A DNA stretch of 64,000 nt, taken from Desulfovibrio sp. (GTDB lineage: Bacteria; Desulfobacterota; Desulfovibrionia; Desulfovibrionales; Desulfovibrionaceae). Shown here in pieces: positions 51,752-61,390 of the stretch. Within the stretch, counting starts at the first letter, position 1. The number at the start of each line of letters is the position of its first letter. Under the pieces are notes generated by a model. That model was not told where the DNA came from, did not search any database, and saw nothing but the letters and a program-made list of their open reading frames with translations. A program made the translations under genes and the position numbers. The stretch spans positions 1 through 64,000 of the forward strand of contig JACQYS010000027.1 of assembly GCA_016208105.1 (NCBI GenBank), written 5' to 3'.

Positions 51752-52606
51752 TTATTTCTTGGGCGCGTGGCAGCCCTTGCAGTCGGTGGCCTGGACGGGT
51801 TCAACGCCCATGGCCTTGTGGCACTGGATGCACTGGATATGGTACGCGGCCATCAGACCCGGACGGTTCGGCTCGTCCTTGGAGAAAGGCTTGCCGTGGC
51901 AGGTGCCGCACTTGGGCGGAGCCATGTCGGCCGGGGTGTGATGGTGGCAGCCCTGGCACAGGGTACCAGGCTGGTCATGGAAGGCCTTGGCCAAGTCGCC
52001 CTTGGCGGCGTCCTTCAGATAGTCCACATGGGCCGAGTGGTTGAAAGCAACCGGCACGTACTGCTTGGACAGCACTCCGATATCAACCGTGTCGGGCTGG
52101 GCCAGCTTGGCGGCCGGGGCCGGGGAGGCCTTCGGATCCTTGTGGCAGGTGTTGCAGGAAGCATCCTTGGGGCCTGGAGCAATGTTCTGATGGCACCCGG
52201 CGCACTGCTTCTTCTGGGTTTCCTTGTAATGGCAGCCCACGCAGGTCAGCTTGGACTGGGCGGAATGCATGGCCGTGGAAAGCTGGACGTTGCCGCCGTC
52301 AGGGGACCCCTGACTGGTATGGCAGCTCGAACAGGGTTCCTGGGAGCCGGTATGGTGGCAGGAATCGCAGTTGGACACCGCGGCTTCATGCTTTTTGTGG
52401 TTGAACACCGCCTTGGACAGAGGGCCCTGTCCCGGCTTTCCGCCGATGGCGGTACCGCTCATAATGATTTGCGGCGACTGAGCCTTGGCCTGATCCCCTA
52501 TCCCCACTCCCAGTCCGGCCAGCAGCGCCGAAGCCAGGGAGAGTGACAGAGTCAAAAAACAGACCCTGGCCCATCGTGACCTGGAAACACGTTTCACCAT
52601 ACGCAT
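51752..52606 (-). CDS. nhcA: Nine-haem cytochrome c (NhcA type)
   Basis: The 284-residue protein has a signal peptide (residues about 10-41) and nine CxxCH haem sites: CDSCH, CSSCH, CVGCH, CAGCH, CNTCH, CQGCH, CGTCH, CIQCH and CKGCH. Axial histidines in HKKHE and HSAHVDY mark two c3-like halves. This haem number matches the nine-haem cytochrome of D. desulfuricans rather than the 16-haem HmcA. The ATG at 52606 follows AAGGA; an in-frame start 103 codons earlier would precede the signal peptide. It begins the second transcription unit of the redox locus. Confidence 0.88.
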
Positions 52607-52890
52607 CCCGTCCTTGCCTCTAAGGTTGAACGCCTGAAACCACGCGACCGGGGAGACCCCACCCCTCCAAGCAGCGTGGCGCTGCAATAAACAGCTGGCC
52701 TGTAACGATTTTGACCACGGGACTAGACCACATTCAAGAGATTCGTCAAGCGGTTCGTGAAAGTAGGAACATGCTTGCCCCCTAGCCCCTCGTTGGCAGT
52801 TTTCCCGCTGCACCGCAGAGGGCCTCGGCTTTGCGCTTTTCAATGCCGTCCACGCATGGGTGAATTTGAATTTTCCCCCCATGAATACCA

Positions 52891-52903
52891 TACTATTATA
52901 GTA
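52891..52903 (-). promoter_or_regulatory. Promoter -10 candidate within a palindrome, nhcA
   Basis: TACTATTATAGTA is an odd-length perfect palindrome and reads TATAAT on the minus strand (52895-52900). The -35 position at 17 bases is weak (TGAGCC). The leader to nhcA would be about 280 bases. A repressor could bind the palindrome. Confidence 0.4.
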
Positions 52904-53065
52904 GCTTATCCGCACGGGCTCACGGAGAATCTCGTACCGCCTGCGGCTGCCTCCCGGAACTACGCCTGATGCTCATACGATCGGGAAGGTGTGCAACCTA
53001 GTTCATCCCCTGTTCGGTTCAACACCGCACGCCCTGCCGGAACCCGAGCTTGTGTCACTTAGGAA

Positions 53066-53112
53066 CAAAAAGGCCCCGCCTCGGTAAGTCCTAAGACTTT
53101 CCGAAGCGGGGC
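53066..53112 (-). terminator. Intrinsic terminator of the HmcE/HmcF/tetrahaem unit
   Basis: GCCCCGC...GCGGGGC outer and CGG/TAAGTC inner pairings form a long stem. On the minus strand it is followed by a T run. It separates the first three genes of the redox locus from nhcABCD. Confidence 0.9.
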
Positions 53113-53147
53113 GGCGGGGGTGGGGACTCCCCGGCCTTTACGGGATG

Positions 53148-53558
53148 CTATTTCACTTGATGGCAACCTGCGCAGGAGCGAGGGCCAAAGCTCAGCTTCT
53201 TGCTGGCAGGCATCTTTTCATGACACCCCCAGCAGTTCTTGTGGAAGGCCTGCTGCAAGCCGACCTTGCTCTTGGGCTTGGCTCCGGCGTGGCAGGCCGC
53301 GCAGGAGGTCTCGTCACCCTCTGTCCAAAGGTTCTTGCCGGGTTGCTTGGGATCATACTTGTGGTGGCAATCGGTGCATGCGTAGCCATCGGCCACATGC
53401 TTTTCGTGGGTAAAGGTCACGGCACCGCGCTGCTTGCCGCCCGCGTAGGCCTTGACGTTGTTCAAGTTCATTTTCGCATCCTGGGCCTGGCCGGTCAGCG
53501 CGAAGGCGCACAGGACAAGGGCCGCGAACACGGCGGCGAGAAGTTTTGTGCGGCGCAT
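53148..53558 (-). CDS. Tetrahaem cytochrome c (class III / TmcA-like)
   Basis: The 136-residue periplasmic protein has a signal peptide (LLAAVFAALVLCAFALTGQAQ) and four CxxCH sites: CTDCH, CAACH, CWGCH and CAGCH. VTFTHEKHVADGY supplies axial histidines as in cytochrome c3. Its ATG overlaps the stop of the HdrD-like gene (TAATG). A membrane-complex cytochrome of TmcA type is favoured over a soluble c3 because it is part of this unit. Confidence 0.85.
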   Translation of the reverse strand: MRRTKLLAAVFAALVLCAFALTGQAQDAKMNLNNVKAYAGGKQRGAVTFTHEKHVADGYACTDCHHKYDPKQPGKNLWTEGDETSCAACHAGAKPKSKVGLQQAFHKNCWGCHEKMPASKKLSFGPRSCAGCHQVK

Positions 53559-54853
53559 TACTCGTCCTCCTCTCCTTCGGGCTTCATGTGGGGCGGAAGG
53601 TCCATCAGTTCGCAGATGAGTTCCTTGAACGACATCACCTTGATACCCAGATCGTATTCCTTGTTCAGGTCGTTAATCTGGTCGGTGCAGTTGTGGCAGG
53701 GCACCAGCACGAACTTGGCGCCGGTCTTCTGGATCTGCTCGGCCTTGACCTTGCCCGCGACCATGCGAGTCTTCTTGTAGTCGGCTCCCATGGGGATGAA
53801 ACCGCCGCCGCCGCAGCAACAGTGGCTCCATTCGGCGTGGGGTTCCATGGGAATGTAGTTCTCGCAGAGCATGTCCATGAGCGCCTCGCCCGCCGGCCCC
53901 AGATCGCCCGAGCGCGACAGATTGCAGGGGTGCTGGTAGGTGATGGCCTCCTTGAACTTGTGCTTGAGCTTGATGCGGCCGTCCTTCATGTAGTCGTGGA
54001 AAAGCTGCACGGCGTGGGTGACCTCCACCGGTGCCTTGCCGCCGGGCTGCTTGGTCCAGTAGGGGCCCTCGTACTTGGCGGCGCGGTAAGCGTGACCGCA
54101 CTCGGTGATGCAGATCTTCTTGGCCCTGAGCTTCTGGGCCGCGTCGTACACTGACTGGGTCACCATGCCGGCAACCCTAAGGTTACCCGAGAACATGGAG
54201 AGGTTGGTGGCTTCCCAGCCGTGGCTTGGCAGGGTCCAGTTTTCACCGGCCGCATGCATGACCATGGCCGCTTCCTGAATGTCTTGCGGGTAGTACTTGG
54301 GTTCGCGGGAGTTCACCACGAACATGATCTCCGCATCTTCCTTGTCGATAGGAATTTCCAGGTCCTTCAGGCGGTCCTGACCTTCCTCCGCCATCCATTC
54401 GCAGGTCTCCACGAACTCCTCGTCCGGGATGGACATCTGGTTGCCGAACTCCTCATAGCTCTGGTCGATGGTCATCAGGCGATCCGGGCAGACCTCCTGA
54501 GTGCGCATGCACTGACGCGCCACGTTGATCATCACCGCAATCTCGATGCCGAAGGGGCAGTACTGGGAGCACCGGCGGCACATTGTGCAGCGGGCCCAAG
54601 CTATTTCCTTCATCTCCTCGAGTTGGGCGCGGGTCACGTTGCCTTTGTTCTTTATGAGTTCTCCAAGGGTCTTGCGAGCCTTGTACTGGGGCATGAACTC
54701 GGGGGCATTCTCATTGGCGAGGTAAAAGAAGCAGGATTCGGAACACAAACCGCACGAGGTGCAGGTCTTCAGCCATGCGCGCAGACGAGCGGTGTCGTTG
54801 CGCTCGATGACCGCCATGATCTCTTCGGCATTGACGGGCTTTTGATCGGACAT
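53558..54853 (-). CDS. HdrD-like iron-sulfur oxidoreductase (HmcF/TmcB type)
   Basis: The 431-residue cytoplasmic protein has two N-terminal 4Fe-4S groups (CTSCGLCSESC and CTMCRRCSQYC) and a C-terminal CCG domain with HCCCGGGGF and CHNC, as in heterodisulfide reductase HdrD. AGGAGG precedes the ATG at 54853. HmcF, TmcB and DsrK share this layout; the length fits HmcF/TmcB better than DsrK (about 540 residues). It would receive or deliver electrons on the cytoplasmic side. Confidence 0.88.
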   Translation of the reverse strand: MSDQKPVNAEEIMAVIERNDTARLRAWLKTCTSCGLCSESCFFYLANENAPEFMPQYKARKTLGELIKNKGNVTRAQLEEMKEIAWARCTMCRRCSQYCPFGIEIAVMINVARQCMRTQEVCPDRLMTIDQSYEEFGNQMSIPDEEFVETCEWMAEEGQDRLKDLEIPIDKEDAEIMFVVNSREPKYYPQDIQEAAMVMHAAGENWTLPSHGWEATNLSMFSGNLRVAGMVTQSVYDAAQKLRAKKICITECGHAYRAAKYEGPYWTKQPGGKAPVEVTHAVQLFHDYMKDGRIKLKHKFKEAITYQHPCNLSRSGDLGPAGEALMDMLCENYIPMEPHAEWSHCCCGGGGFIPMGADYKKTRMVAGKVKAEQIQKTGAKFVLVPCHNCTDQINDLNKEYDLGIKVMSFKELICELMDLPPHMKPEGEEDE

Positions 54854-54863
54854 ATGGTGCCTC

Positions 54864-55514
54864 CTACCAGGTCTTGGTGCCGCGGCGGGCAAACTCGCTG
54901 CCGATGAAGGCGCGCGTCATGAAGAAGAGGAACACGTGGGCCAGCTTGGTGAAAGGGATGCAGATAAGCATCAAACATCCCGAGAACACATGCAAGAGGA
55001 GCATGGTGTCTGGGTCGAGCAGCATCTTATGGGCGCTCAAGTACCCCGTGAGAAACGGGAGCACAGTGATGCACCAGACAACGATATCCTTGGGCTCGGT
55101 GACAATGCGTACCTGGGGCACCACGAACCGGCGGATCAGCAGGAACAGAGCGGCGGCCAGAAACACCAGGGTCATTTTGTCCGCAACGCCGTCCGGCAGA
55201 CTCGGCCAGCCGATGCCTCTGTTGAATTCGAGCGTGACCGCATGGCCGAGCGCGAAAAGCGGCACGATAATCAGGCAGATGTGGAAGGCAAAGGTCCCCA
55301 GGGTCAAACCGGGGTGCTCCCGCCAGCTCCGCGAGCCAAAGGGCATGAGCCACGCCCAGATCGAGCCGGCAGCCGCCCCGGGGTTGTAGTGGTCGTAGAA
55401 GACCTTGTCCGTCCTGCGCGACATTTTGTAGAGTGATACAATCTGCCAAAGGCTGCCGAAGACCAGGACGGCAAAGGCTATCCATACCAATGGACCGTTC
55501 ACGAATGCGTACAT
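54864..55514 (-). CDS. Cytochrome b-type membrane subunit (HmcE/TmcC, NarI-like)
   Basis: The 216-residue protein has about five membrane helices and a NarI-like fold, with His residues placed in helices (for example FHICLIIVPLFALGHAV and LLLHVFSG) that can bind two b haems. DsrM is considerably longer, which argues against dsrMKJOP. It is the first gene of the redox locus and likely relays electrons between quinone and the HdrD-like subunit. Confidence 0.85.
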   Translation of the reverse strand: MYAFVNGPLVWIAFAVLVFGSLWQIVSLYKMSRRTDKVFYDHYNPGAAAGSIWAWLMPFGSRSWREHPGLTLGTFAFHICLIIVPLFALGHAVTLEFNRGIGWPSLPDGVADKMTLVFLAAALFLLIRRFVVPQVRIVTEPKDIVVWCITVLPFLTGYLSAHKMLLDPDTMLLLHVFSGCLMLICIPFTKLAHVFLFFMTRAFIGSEFARRGTKTW

Positions 55515-56768: not shown

Positions 56769-59711
56769 CTAAAACCATGTCACAGGACAGCGAACTATCT
56801 TCTGGGCCTTGTTGCGGTACAAAAGATACCCGTTTTCGCGCCCGAAGAGATAGATATCGCGGGTAAGAGCCACGTCCGTCGTGCAGTAGCGGGTGATCTC
56901 GTCCAGTTTTCCCTGCTTCCACCACTCCAGGGCCTTGAGCCCGTCTGCTGTTTTAGACGCTCCCAGGGTGGCCGCGCCAAGAGTGTCCAAGGAGATCCGC
57001 ACACCGATGCGGCTCTTTATGTGCTCAAGCATGTCCAGGGTGGGCAGTGAGCCGAAGTCGACATTCGAGTAGCCGCGCAACACCTCGTAATCGAACCGTT
57101 TGCAGTTGAACCCCACTACGAGGTCCGCTTTTTCAAGCGACTGTATCAGCTCCCCTACGCGCTCCTCCGTAAAGACCAGGAAATCGTCCAGCGCGGAGTC
57201 GTAGACCACGCCCACCGAAAGACGCATTTTGCTTGCGTTGTGCCAGCCGCCTACTTCCTGGGCGGAAAGCTGGGTTTCCAGGTCGAACACGGCGAACCGT
57301 CCTGGAGGATGCGACGCTTGGGATTGCGGCACCGAACCGTTGAATACGTCTGAAGTGCCATCCGTTCCCTGTCTGTCATGAGCTTCGCCCAGGGTAAAAC
57401 CTGGGTCGTTAACCCCGCCAACAGTCTCCACAACAAAAGGTTCCGTGGATTCTGGAACTCCCCTAAGGATGGACTCCGCCACGAACTGGGCGGCGACCTT
57501 GTCGATCGGCCGGTTGCCTGAGCCGCATTTGGGGGAATGCACGCAGGAAGGGCAGCCGTTCTCGCAGGAGCAGCCGGTCATAACGGACAGCGTCCGCTCG
57601 AGCAGTTCCCCGGCCCGGGCATAGGCCTGACGGGTCAGGCCCACTCCACCGGGCACACCGTCGTATATGAACACCGCCGCTCTTCCAAGCTGCGGGTGCA
57701 ACGGGGTGGAGATGCCGCCAAGGTCGTTGCGGTCGGTCATGACCAGCAGCGGGAGGATGCCTATGGAGGCGTGCTCCATGGCGTGAATGCCGCCCATGAA
57801 ATGAAACAGGCGTCTCTCAGCCTCCTCCTGCACCTCTCTGGGTATTTCGTACCACAACCCTTCAGTTTCAAATGTCAGGGGCGGCAGGTCCAGGGGCACA
57901 ATGTTCAAAATTTGGCCGCCACGGGTTTTGCGTCTCTCATATCCGGTGATGGTCTCAGTTACCTTGAGCCGCCCGAAGCCAACACGGGCCCCGAAGACCA
58001 CTCCCTGATCCTTCACGCTGAGTATTTCCGTGGTCTTCTGGCCTCTTGTGCGGGTGTAATAATCGACTTGTTTGGGCACCACCTTGGCCAGGCGCTCAGC
58101 CAGAGACAACTCCTCGACCAGGTAACTGACGCCACGATGCAGATAGATGGCACCCGGGTGGGTTTCACGAAACGCCCTGTGCTCGTCCATGAACCCGATG
58201 GAAATCCCGCCGGAAGCCTCGATATGGTAGCGTCCGCCCGAGCCGCGCAGATCAACGTCCCGGTGCGGGGATTTCCGCCCGGCATGGATGCGCTCGCCCT
58301 TGGCGTCCAACAAAAGCTTCCCAACAACCAGGAGTTTCTCCACCTCGCAACGCGCCGCCTCCGAAGCCAGGTACGGCTCACCGGGACGCAGGGCGTATTC
58401 GGCCGCCGCGCATTCCAGATGCCTGGCCATGATGGCCGGATTGTTCGGGTTGACCACGGCATCCTCGGGCGGCCGGTCGAAGAAGTCCTCAGGATGGCGC
58501 ATGAAGTACTGGTCCAAGGCGTCTTCACCCGCAACCAGGATCATGGCCGACTCGCGCATGCTGCGCCCCACGCGGCCTCCGCGCTGCCAGGTGGACATCA
58601 CCGTGCCGGGGTATCCGGCCAGTATGCACAGGTCGAGGCCCCCGATATCGATGCCCAGTTCCAGGGCCGAGGTGGAAATGACTGCCAACAGCTCCCCCGA
58701 GGCCATTTTTGCTTCGATGTCGCGGCGTTCCTCAGGCAGAAACCCGGATCGGTAGGCGCTGATGCGCGGGGCCATGGGGCCGGCCTTTTCCGCTGCCCAC
58801 AGGGCGATGAGTTCGGTCATCTTGCGGGACTGGGCATAGACGATGGTGCGAAGCCCTCGGGCCAACGCAGCTTTGAGGAGCATTATGGCCGTGTGCGCCG
58901 CCCCTTGAATCGGATTCACGAAGAGGAAGTGGCGTTTGCCGGAAGGCGCGCCGGATTCGGAGACCACCTCCACAGGAAGGTCCGTGAGAGCCCGGGCCAG
59001 CTCTCCAGGATTTCCTATGGTGGCCGAACAGAAAAGATGTGTCGGGCGAGTCCCAAAGCGTTCACACACCCGGTTCAACCGACGGAACACGTGGGCCATG
59101 TGCGAGCCCATCACTCCCCGGTAGGTGTGCACCTCGTCCACAACCACATGGGTGAGCCCGGCCAGGAACGTGGCCCAGGTTTCCTGATGGGGCAGAATGG
59201 AAAGGTGGAGCATCTCAGGATTGGTGATCAGTACATTCGGAGGGTTCTGGCGCAGCTTCTTGCGGAAATGCGGGGTGGTGTCACCGTCGTACACCGCCAC
59301 CGTTGGCCTGGCCGAGGCAGGCAACAAGGACGTCAGCTCATTAAAAGCCCGCAACTGGTCCTGGGCAAGAGCTTTAAGAGGAAAGAGAAACAGGGCCCGG
59401 CTAGCCGGATCGGCGATGATCTGCTCCAAGACGGGCAGGGTGTAGGTCAGTGTCTTGCCGGACGCGGTTGGCGTGGCAGCCACCACGTGGCGCCCGGCCC
59501 GGGCAAGGGAGTGGCAGCGCGCCTGATGGCTGTAGAGGCGTTCGATCCCGCGTGCGGCCAGCATCTCCTGCACCGCCCTGGACAGTGGTCTTACAGGATC
59601 AGCATATTCGGCTTCGCGAGCAGGGATGAGGCGATGGTGGCAAATGCAGTTCTTGAGGCGCTCCGAGGCCTTCAGCGCCGAGACGTATTCGGCGATGTCG
59701 AGTGTGTTCAT
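56769..59711 (-). CDS. DEXH helicase fused to a 3'-5' exonuclease domain (MrfA-MrfB-like)
   Basis: The 980-residue protein starts with an SF2 helicase: Walker A ATPTASGKT, DEVH box VVVDEVHTYRG, and motif VI QRGGRVGRSMRES. A DUF1998 region follows with the four-Cys cluster CSCENGCPSC and KCGSGN. A linker of about 60 residues leads to a C-terminal RNase H-like DEDD exonuclease from about residue 805: FDLETQ, GFNCKRFDYEVL and CTTDVALTRDIY. In B. subtilis these are the separate proteins MrfA and MrfB, which act in mitomycin-type lesion repair. The gene is followed by the SGNH-like gene's operon neighbour on the 5' side with a 4-base overlap. Confidence 0.88.
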   Translation of the reverse strand: MNTLDIAEYVSALKASERLKNCICHHRLIPAREAEYADPVRPLSRAVQEMLAARGIERLYSHQARCHSLARAGRHVVAATPTASGKTLTYTLPVLEQIIADPASRALFLFPLKALAQDQLRAFNELTSLLPASARPTVAVYDGDTTPHFRKKLRQNPPNVLITNPEMLHLSILPHQETWATFLAGLTHVVVDEVHTYRGVMGSHMAHVFRRLNRVCERFGTRPTHLFCSATIGNPGELARALTDLPVEVVSESGAPSGKRHFLFVNPIQGAAHTAIMLLKAALARGLRTIVYAQSRKMTELIALWAAEKAGPMAPRISAYRSGFLPEERRDIEAKMASGELLAVISTSALELGIDIGGLDLCILAGYPGTVMSTWQRGGRVGRSMRESAMILVAGEDALDQYFMRHPEDFFDRPPEDAVVNPNNPAIMARHLECAAAEYALRPGEPYLASEAARCEVEKLLVVGKLLLDAKGERIHAGRKSPHRDVDLRGSGGRYHIEASGGISIGFMDEHRAFRETHPGAIYLHRGVSYLVEELSLAERLAKVVPKQVDYYTRTRGQKTTEILSVKDQGVVFGARVGFGRLKVTETITGYERRKTRGGQILNIVPLDLPPLTFETEGLWYEIPREVQEEAERRLFHFMGGIHAMEHASIGILPLLVMTDRNDLGGISTPLHPQLGRAAVFIYDGVPGGVGLTRQAYARAGELLERTLSVMTGCSCENGCPSCVHSPKCGSGNRPIDKVAAQFVAESILRGVPESTEPFVVETVGGVNDPGFTLGEAHDRQGTDGTSDVFNGSVPQSQASHPPGRFAVFDLETQLSAQEVGGWHNASKMRLSVGVVYDSALDDFLVFTEERVGELIQSLEKADLVVGFNCKRFDYEVLRGYSNVDFGSLPTLDMLEHIKSRIGVRISLDTLGAATLGASKTADGLKALEWWKQGKLDEITRYCTTDVALTRDIYLFGRENGYLLYRNKAQKIVRCPVTWF

Positions 59712-61390
59712 CGCCCCGCCGGAAATCCGGTGACCATCATGCGCCGCTCCCGCTTTTGCCCGTCCATGCGTTCGGTGCAGAGCCTACTCGTACCGGACAT
59801 GCGCACGAGTATTCTGAAGGAGGTAGGGGCAATGTCCTTAAACGGCAGGTCGAGGAGAAAGTATGATTCGTACGTTCCCTGTCGTTGCGATCCCGTGCTG
59901 GCCTTGCAAAGAAGAGGCTGCCAGACTTTGCCATCAAGGGAAAAATATGCCTCGAGCTTCGAGCGACGGGCTGGATCCTCCCCAGCATACCCTGGCAAGC
60001 GCAACTCCACGGAAGAGAGGGGCTCGGGGGCAACAAACGAGAACTCCGCCTCACCTTCCCCAGCGGCCTCATCCTCAAGCTTAACGGCGTTGATGGGGAA
60101 GGAGCCTTCTTTTTCTACGGTCAGACCGGACACACGCTCCAGCCTGCCAATCAGCCGAGCGCCCGGAGCCAGGGTGAAAATCGCCTGAGGATCTGCCAGG
60201 ACCTCCGCCTCCAAGGGGCCTGCGAAGCTTGACATGCGAGGTCTCGGAGCCACTCGCAAAAGGCTTTTTTTCTCAGATGATTCGGCCAAGACCAAACTGT
60301 CCGCCACAGCGCGAGCGATGAGCTGGTTACCATATGGGGAGCAGTGGCCATCGCGGGGAACCAAGTAGGGATGGACACCGGTCAAGAACCGGGCGGTCCT
60401 GAAGGATGCGAGCATGTCCACAGCCGGAATGCCAAGTCTTTCCAGGGCAGGAGACAGGACTTGGTTCACTGTGTAGGCCCTGCCCTCAACCTGCACTAGG
60501 TCCGGCACACACAAAAAGAGCATGTCCGCACCGAAATGGCGGGTCATGTCCCTGAAGCCCTTTAGAGCCTCCAGATAGGCTTCCCAGGCAGGCGCGGCCG
60601 GACCTGAAGGATCACCGCCCGCGATGCGTTCATGGGAGCCGAAAAAATCGACCGTTTCTTTGGAGGCCTTGAATCTGTATGGATCGAGTCCTGGATTGAA
60701 TCTCGCGGTTTCCCTCGCGCTCCGGCTGACAGGCTGGGTGAATTGGGTGGTTTTGGTGAAGGCGAGGCGAACACTGACGGCCAATTGATACAACCTTGAA
60801 CCGGAGAGTAGCTTAGAAATCCCACTCCGCCTGGAATAGGTGGGATCGTTGGAAAACATCTCGCGGATGACTACCTCGCGACAGATATCCTGGAGGTCGT
60901 TGAGGAAGAACTGCAGCACTACCACGTCTGGGTTCAGAGCCGCTCCCTTCTGGAGGAAGTAATCCATTTCGTCGAGGATGCCGAACATGGGCACCCCGGC
61001 GTTAACGATCTCGATAGAGCGCCCTGGAAAGCGGCGGCCGAGTTCCTGGCGGAGAAGTTCGGGGTAGGTGTCTTCGTCATCCACGCCGTACCCGAAGGTG
61101 AAGGAGTCGCCGACACACAGCACGCGCAGGGTTCCTTCCGGCTTTTTTGCAGTAAAAGGTACAAGCCCTCGCGTGCCCTGTTGAGTAGCGGTGATACGGT
61201 AGAGCAGTTGCGGATAGAGGCTATCCGTGATTCGCATTCCCGGCTCCAGGTCTCCGTGCACACCGGCGTAGTACCTGGGTAGGAAAAAACTGTTTGGAAC
61301 AAAGTCGAAAAAGCGCAGGCCGAACTCGATCACAAAAAAAAGTCCTGCCACTGTCGCCAGAAGGTAGAACGCGAACCAAACCTTGCGCAT
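59708..61390 (-). CDS. Membrane-anchored SGNH/GDSL hydrolase-like protein
   Basis: The 560-residue protein has one N-terminal membrane helix (VWFAFYLLATVAGLFFVIEFGL). An SGNH hydrolase domain follows: block I CVGDSFTFGYG with the nucleophilic serine, FFLNDLQD as block III, and the Asp-His pair in RDGHCSPYGNQ. The C-terminal 180 residues look like beta-strands and may bind carbohydrate. Such proteins often modify exported polysaccharides (AlgX/acetyltransferase-linked type), but the substrate here is unknown. Confidence 0.72.
   Translation of the reverse strand: MRKVWFAFYLLATVAGLFFVIEFGLRFFDFVPNSFFLPRYYAGVHGDLEPGMRITDSLYPQLLYRITATQQGTRGLVPFTAKKPEGTLRVLCVGDSFTFGYGVDDEDTYPELLRQELGRRFPGRSIEIVNAGVPMFGILDEMDYFLQKGAALNPDVVVLQFFLNDLQDICREVVIREMFSNDPTYSRRSGISKLLSGSRLYQLAVSVRLAFTKTTQFTQPVSRSARETARFNPGLDPYRFKASKETVDFFGSHERIAGGDPSGPAAPAWEAYLEALKGFRDMTRHFGADMLFLCVPDLVQVEGRAYTVNQVLSPALERLGIPAVDMLASFRTARFLTGVHPYLVPRDGHCSPYGNQLIARAVADSLVLAESSEKKSLLRVAPRPRMSSFAGPLEAEVLADPQAIFTLAPGARLIGRLERVSGLTVEKEGSFPINAVKLEDEAAGEGEAEFSFVAPEPLSSVELRLPGYAGEDPARRSKLEAYFSLDGKVWQPLLCKASTGSQRQGTYESYFLLDLPFKDIAPTSFRILVRMSGTSRLCTERMDGQKRERRMMVTGFPAGR

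Follow-up and report, generated by a model that had tools for sequence, protein, structure and literature searches.

Does a bacterial protein that holds a helicase and an exonuclease in one chain represent MrfA joined to MrfB, or another pairing of the same two activities? This question is raised by a locus in a 64,000-nucleotide stretch of a Desulfovibrio sp. genome (contig JACQYS010000027.1, positions 1 to 64,000; hereafter the window). A single open reading frame (ORF) was found there at 56769-59711 on the minus strand, which runs uninterrupted from ATG through stop and encodes 980 amino acids (aa); the MZB match and the exonuclease match both lie within it. An earlier note on this DNA had described the product as an MrfA-like helicase fused to an MrfB-like exonuclease. 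Its account of the chain was borne out, as the ORF, the Pfam matches and the invariant residues placed a DEVH helicase, a four-cysteine DUF1998 cluster and a DEDD RNase H-like domain in one 980-residue protein. Judged from sequence comparison, the fused protein probably does not represent a joining of mrfA to mrfB but a second pairing of these activities.

Kinship of the two halves

The protein has the superfamily 2 (SF2) core, the winged helix and the DUF1998 four-Cys domain of the YprA/MrfA helicase family, and the D-x-E, D and D residues in an RNase H-like fold of the DEDD/DnaQ-like superfamily. When 32 full-length proteins (the window protein and 31 relatives) were aligned, the Walker A residues T82, S84, G85 and K86, the DEVH residues D192, E193 and H195, the cysteines C714, C716, C720 and C723 of the DUF1998 cluster and the catalytic-type residues D810, E812, D874, Y942 and D946 were all invariant (32/32). 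The Pfam RNase_H_2 match (PF13482, residues 854-954) was weak, with 24.4 bits at a cut-off of 22. Together with the DEDD residues present in 32/32 proteins, it bears out the RNase H-like C-terminal domain on which the earlier note had made its reading depend. Decay of the exonuclease was ruled out by the intact catalytic-type residues, and an assembly artefact by the recurrence of this architecture across dozens of genomes.

At the fourth position before the last Asp, 32/32 fused domains had Tyr (Tyr-Cys-x-x-Asp, DEDDy), whereas 22/22 MrfB-type proteins of the same phylum had His (DEDDh). Of 18 operon copies examined, 0 had been dropped for missing His. The MrfB-type alignment (A2) was without L106, whose exonuclease was missed by the pattern, and nine further MrfB-type loci; alignment A3 was without eight RNase_H_2 loci whose motifs the pattern missed. 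It was also found that the ORF ends 34 residues beyond the last Asp. The MrfB-type loci listed have 125-136 extra residues after the trimmed core, L102 being without them, and in MrfB this extra C-terminal region is a TPR domain according to PMC11194089. The TPR-type extension is absent from the fused protein, which stops where the extra region of MrfB starts.

Profile comparison by hhalign placed the fused domain at E 3.6e-6 (prob 87.5) from the MrfB set of the same phylum, indicating remote homology only, and at E 8.1e-47 (prob 100) from standalone phage/plasmid exonucleases, a score biased upward by the way in which that set was collected. A standalone RNase_H_2 family, which includes another protein of the window genome, matched the fused domain at 1.9e-8, MrfB at 1.1e-19 and the phage/plasmid exonucleases at 2.4e-14, and the phage/plasmid exonucleases matched MrfB at 1.5e-10. 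When the Protein Data Bank (PDB) was searched with the fused-domain profile, only weak matches such as T7 DNA polymerase (E 0.07) were obtained; the solved MrfB structure (8un9) was not returned at E<=10, whereas the MrfB-type profile found it at 1e-48. Pairwise search of the PDB with the exonuclease domain gave nothing credible. In the exonuclease tree, from which L219 (partial), L225 and L231 (duplicates) and L232 and L233 (longer) were excluded, the fused, orphan and phage/plasmid rows were split from MrfB and the standalone family by a 99/99 branch. The closest free-standing kin found were on phage, viral and plasmid contigs. The best PHROG match of the domain was 'DNA polymerase exonuclease subunit' (E 5.6e-12), and DNA_pol_A_exo1 was also matched by 25/32 fused members at E<=0.01. 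An insert after DxE, GK..G and YCxxDV are motifs common to the fused domain and the phage/plasmid family.

These comparisons best support the assignment of the fused domain as a predicted DEDDy exonuclease of phage/plasmid type. The label 'MrfB-like' thus holds for a DEDD exonuclease with all four acidic residues and is not supported for the placement with MrfB, considering the Tyr in place of His, the missing C-terminal region and the profile nearer to phage/plasmid enzymes, although a fused and MrfB clade was left standing by the approximately unbiased (AU) test (p 0.309). The second RNase_H_2 exonuclease of the window genome (L032, G000 contig C8, ~57369-57806) is a standalone protein of 279 aa with a YN-x-x-D motif. 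That it is a copy of the fused domain was ruled out, as its family is nearer to MrfB than to the fused domain (1.1e-19 and 1.9e-8, as above); by profile this family also lies nearer to MrfB than the fused domain does.

The model of the C-terminal domain, built from the 32 sequences, had a mean predicted local distance difference test score (pLDDT) of 94.7. The top-ranked PDB chains were family-B DNA polymerases, matched in most rows via their proofreading exonuclease domain; the best were 5mdn_A (Z 14.8, root mean square deviation (rmsd) 4.2, 170 residues) and 4flu_A (Z 14.4, rmsd 3.9, 167 residues). MrfB was not among the 50 best Foldseek or VIA matches, which is no evidence of differing folds. 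Because polymerase proofreading domains of family B are also among the nearest folds of MrfB (PMC11194089), fold alone does not separate the fused domain from MrfB.

MrfA of B. subtilis (6znp) aligned to residues 5-726 of the fused protein over ~720 residues, with an E value of 5.5e-152 and without large insertions, which supports the 'MrfA-like' description at the level of the YprA/MrfA family. That it is the closest counterpart of MrfA is not supported. A tree of 61 helicases placed B. subtilis MrfA with 18 helicases of the split arrangement (support 100) and the fused helicases with seven helicases without a nearby exonuclease partner (support 100). The partial L122 was excluded from this tree. 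L121 counts there as fused, although its contig stops short of the exonuclease, and L103 carries the solo label despite an upstream MrfB-type gene fragment, so that the true solo rows are seven. In a second tree, with roughly half the fused and split rows and an outgroup of three large distant helicases (two with a DUF1998 match), the fused and solo group kept its support of 100, and a group of fused helicases with MrfA was rejected (AU p 0.0023). The fused state required one change on the 61-helicase tree (support 10) and two on the outgroup tree, which would fit either a single fusion or more than one. Judged by these trees, which were quick trees with long outgroup branches, the fused helicase belongs with the partnerless YprA-type helicases, outside the MrfA branch. 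The window genome had one DUF1998 match in total in the profile search.

Spread of the fused and split forms

The exonuclease domain was matched in 88 of the 297 sampled genomes of the phylum, 85 of them strongly (E<=2.1e-31). The strong matches lay in frames of >=900 aa in 80 of the 85 genomes; in 31 of the 80, as well as in G026 and the window, the presence of a helicase in that ORF was verified by BLAST, and for the rest it is deduced from frame length. Among the other five genomes, G205 and G252 were cut by contig ends, the helicase frame of G049 was broken, the match in G293 lay near a contig start, and G228 had a free exonuclease. By eye, the neighbours of this free gene (L204, G228 contig C22) were dNTPase-like and ClpB-like, and L204 suggests that the fused-type exonuclease domain may work alone.

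A species-wide scan of 84,980 genomes with the pattern GFN-x-x-x-FD gave at least 569 confirmed loci, of which the best 80 were kept. The three exonuclease motif blocks were present in 80/80 of these loci, one block being the scan's own pattern. Helicase and exonuclease were in one ORF at 75/80, so that the fusion is not due to chance; 70 of the 75 were full length, a 418-aa fragment (L161) not being counted as such. The other five comprised three loci that begin at a contig edge, L151, with its helicase in a separate frame just upstream, and L167, which had no helicase within its 5.9 kb. The best 80 loci bore sulfate-reducer or delta-type names, except for two titled just Proteobacteria bacterium. 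The 85/297 genomes and the scan loci show that the fusion is neither rare nor local.

Split forms were found in the same phylum. Among the matches listed, a DUF1998 helicase and an RNase_H_2 gene lay within 3 kb on the same strand in 29 genomes, with the exonuclease downstream in 27. A search with the MrfB-type profile, in which at most 10 candidates were scored per genome, gave a match in 41/297 genomes at E<=1e-15. In the comparison of fused and split forms proposed in the earlier note, no genome had both a strong fused-type domain (85) and an MrfB-type match (41), against ~12 expected under independence. The zero overlap is compatible with functional replacement; lineage history explains it equally well, because the two genome sets share no family code (29 and 14 families). 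No adjacent helicase/RNase_H_2 pair was observed in the fusion genomes among the matches listed (98 DUF1998, 49 RNase_H_2). In one fusion genome, G254, a DUF1998 match also lies in an unfused frame of 784 aa (contig C7, ~137456-137725). L102 and L103, two helicases of another branch, are preceded, not followed, by an MrfB-type DEDDh exonuclease gene, and this placement is a third arrangement of the same pairing.

Role and surroundings of the fused protein

We consider it probable, on the sequence evidence, that the fused protein is a housekeeping DNA-repair helicase-exonuclease, in which a partnerless YprA-type SF2 helicase is tethered at its C-terminus, through the linker predicted to be disordered, to a phage/plasmid-type DEDDy exonuclease. 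A joint repair role of helicase and exonuclease, as the earlier note had predicted, is kept as the best inference; bulky-lesion repair would be the role most readily inferred, with repair of crosslinks or adducts as the leading guess. Starting from the observed architecture, intact residues, conservation and relationships, the following scheme is conceivable. The motor would load where a nick, a gap or a stalled end offers single-stranded DNA and would translocate 3'->5', a polarity carried over from MrfA, stripping the damaged or blocked strand off the duplex. The tethered exonuclease would trim the exposed 3' end with the 3'-5' polarity assumed from other DEDDy enzymes, and a gap would be left for resynthesis after removal of the damaged segment. 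DNA as the substrate, and bulky adducts or crosslinks as the lesions, are presumed in this scheme. In the docking model of MrfAB, the free 3' end lies near the MrfB active site (PMC11194089); the tether would do the same job in the fused protein, keeping the free 3' end near the exonuclease.

Several observations weigh against this explanation. G228, a 99% complete genome, has a free 219-aa exonuclease but nothing that matches the helicase part, in G102 a second exonuclease copy of 182 aa stands free, and the seven sister helicases carry no such exonuclease domain; because of these, the two halves are not strictly interdependent. The phage/plasmid set was collected by similarity to the fused domain, and by the AU test a clade of fused domains and MrfB is compatible with the exonuclease data. 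A further step, which we regard as possible but put forward tentatively, is that an early member of the phylum welded a phage-type exonuclease onto a stand-alone YprA helicase, giving a single-chain lesion-excision machine that replaced MrfAB. If true, the logic of MrfAB (a YprA-type motor and a 3'-5' exonuclease) evolved more than once from different parts, and the exonuclease-containing DinG would be a further analogue of it.

The reading that orthologs of mrfA and mrfB have truly fused and keep the mitomycin function of MrfAB is favoured by the shared superfamilies, by the same order of parts as in the split operon (exonuclease downstream in 27/29 adjacent pairs among the matches listed), by the fall of both exonucleases into Pfam RNase_H_2 and by the AU result (p 0.309). 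It is nevertheless decidedly unlikely in view of DEDDy here and DEDDh in MrfB, the profile distances to MrfB and to phage/plasmid exonucleases (3.6e-6 vs 8.1e-47), the failure of the fused profile to return the 8un9 structure that the split family finds, and a helicase clade that excludes MrfA (AU p 0.0023). The earlier note had taken the fusion as support for a direct MrfA-MrfB pairing. Because the exonuclease is not placed with MrfB and the helicase lies outside the MrfA clade, the fusion says little about such contact; two-hybrid data on it are already available (PMC11194089).

That the protein is an anti-phage helicase-nuclease, a YprA-family helicase with a phage-captured nuclease comparable to ARMADA, Druantia and TALON, would agree with the phage, viral and plasmid contigs of its nearest free-standing exonuclease kin, and YprA helicases have a central place in several defence systems, in which nucleases are fused or adjacent to them (PMC12458937). 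Yet the fused protein is widely conserved across the phylum, and Pfam scanning of eight neighbouring ORFs gave cytochrome, electron-transfer, Rrf2, SGNH and two-component genes and none of the partner genes or nuclease domains of YprA-based defence systems. The best 25 of 58 PADLOC matches with the fused protein as query cover the helicase or DUF1998 parts only. Moreover, the defence members are described with inserted modules and the TALON RNase H domains as inactivated (PMC12458937), whereas the fused protein aligns to MrfA without large insertions and its exonuclease residues are intact; a defence role is unlikely on these grounds. An RNA-processing or R-loop enzyme, whose DEDDy domain would trim the 3' ends of helicase-released RNA, appears very improbable. 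DEDDy enzymes do include RNase D and NrnC (PMC11194089), and the DNA_pol_A_exo1 matches of 25/32 members fit with this; however, by structure the domain matches proofreading domains of DNA polymerases best, the best PHROG match is a DNA polymerase exonuclease subunit (E 5.6e-12), and MrfA is a DNA helicase (PMC12458937).

The coordinates of the gene, its domains and the gene upstream are collected in the table below. The ATG of the fused gene overlaps the TGA of the SGNH/GDSL-hydrolase-like gene (ATGA); the two genes are probably co-transcribed and have no known functional link. Neighbour clustering showed that the most frequent neighbour family reaches at most 25/72 fused loci, and the fused protein looks self-contained because no neighbour family exceeds this number. 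Counts of promoters and terminators did not exceed those of shuffled sequence. A HolA-like gene (DNA polymerase III delta, by eye) lies within 300 bases upstream in 5/72 fused loci, including L182, with a median overlap of 3 bases. Elsewhere in the window, 51752-55514 on the minus strand encodes cytochrome c3-type multihaem proteins (by eye ~nine and four CxxCH), a CCG/4Fe-4S protein and a nitrate-reductase-gamma-like membrane protein. This region resembles what we take to be a Tmc/Dsr-type electron-transfer complex of sulfate reducers.

Table. Coordinates of the fused gene, its parts and the adjoining gene in the window
Feature	Position	Strand	Basis
Fused helicase-exonuclease gene, 980 aa	56769..59711	-	ORF; holds MZB and exonuclease matches
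RecA1/DEAD domain, TASGKT Walker A and DEVH box, residues 61-233	59013..59531	-	Pfam PF00270, 97.6 bits; motifs from translation
RecA2/Helicase_C domain, residues 282-384	58560..58868	-	Pfam PF00271, 48.8 bits
Winged helix (HRQ1-type, WHD_HRQ1), residues 420-490	58242..58454	-	Pfam PF22982, 29.9 bits, cut-off 27
MZB/DUF1998 zinc-binding domain, residues 646-724	57540..57776	-	Pfam PF09369, 79.1 bits
Linker, predicted disordered, residues 764-801	57309..57422	-	pLDDT <50, full-length model
Predicted DEDDy 3'-5' exonuclease-type domain, residues 804-980	56772..57302	-	Pfam PF13482, invariant residues, fold
SGNH/GDSL-hydrolase-like gene, upstream	59708..61390	-	4-base overlap with fused gene start

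Comparison with known systems

That YprA-exonuclease fusions exist is already in print: a 2025 preprint mentions, in one clause, YprA helicases 'fused to MrfB/YprB homologs', which are of the same helicase family as the fused protein, and describes a 'YprA only' branch of the family (PMC12458937). The accessible part of this preprint does not treat the fused exonuclease as a DEDDy, phage-like family of its own and does not describe its spread in the phylum. MrfAB homologs are reported there to depend on closely related alleles. No description of a DEDDy phage-type exonuclease fused to a DUF1998 helicase was found in the literature searched at the level of titles and abstract openings.

Helicase-exonuclease coordination is at issue in the recently found MrfAB excision pathway, and a single-chain version with a different, predicted-active exonuclease offers a tractable object for what an MrfAB-like pathway needs. 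It can be asked whether a motor and a 3'-5' nuclease are sufficient, or whether the TPR domain, the DEDDh type and the N-terminal tail of MrfB are required. The present case is also a warning that an RNase_H_2 domain beside or inside a YprA helicase is not always MrfB.

The standalone phage/plasmid DEDDy exonucleases, such as gp06 of Bdellovibrio phage phi1422, the PHROG 403 match and the IMG/VR loci L218-L231, share the profile of the fused domain, with a GW-containing insert and YC-x-x-DV in most members. They are ORFs of ~160-290 aa (the partial L219 being shorter), and no helicase matching the fused one was found in the fetched flanks of their loci. MrfA/YprA and MrfB/YprB of Bacillus subtilis resemble the fused protein in that an SF2 helicase with a DUF1998 cluster is paired with a DEDD 3'-5' exonuclease, but they are encoded by separate genes, with the helicase in another clade. 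WRN resembles the fused protein in having a helicase and a DEDD exonuclease on one chain; it is a eukaryotic member of the RecQ family, with an N-terminal exonuclease. MrfB itself is a DEDDh enzyme that carries an N-terminal insertion as well as a TPR domain (PMC11194089), whereas the fused domain is of the DEDDy type and has no such C-terminal region. The exonuclease-containing DinG of Staphylococcus aureus likewise joins a helicase and a DEDD exonuclease in one chain, but its helicase is of the DinG type with the opposite polarity (5'-3'), and its exonuclease is N-terminal and DEDDh (PMC12345164).

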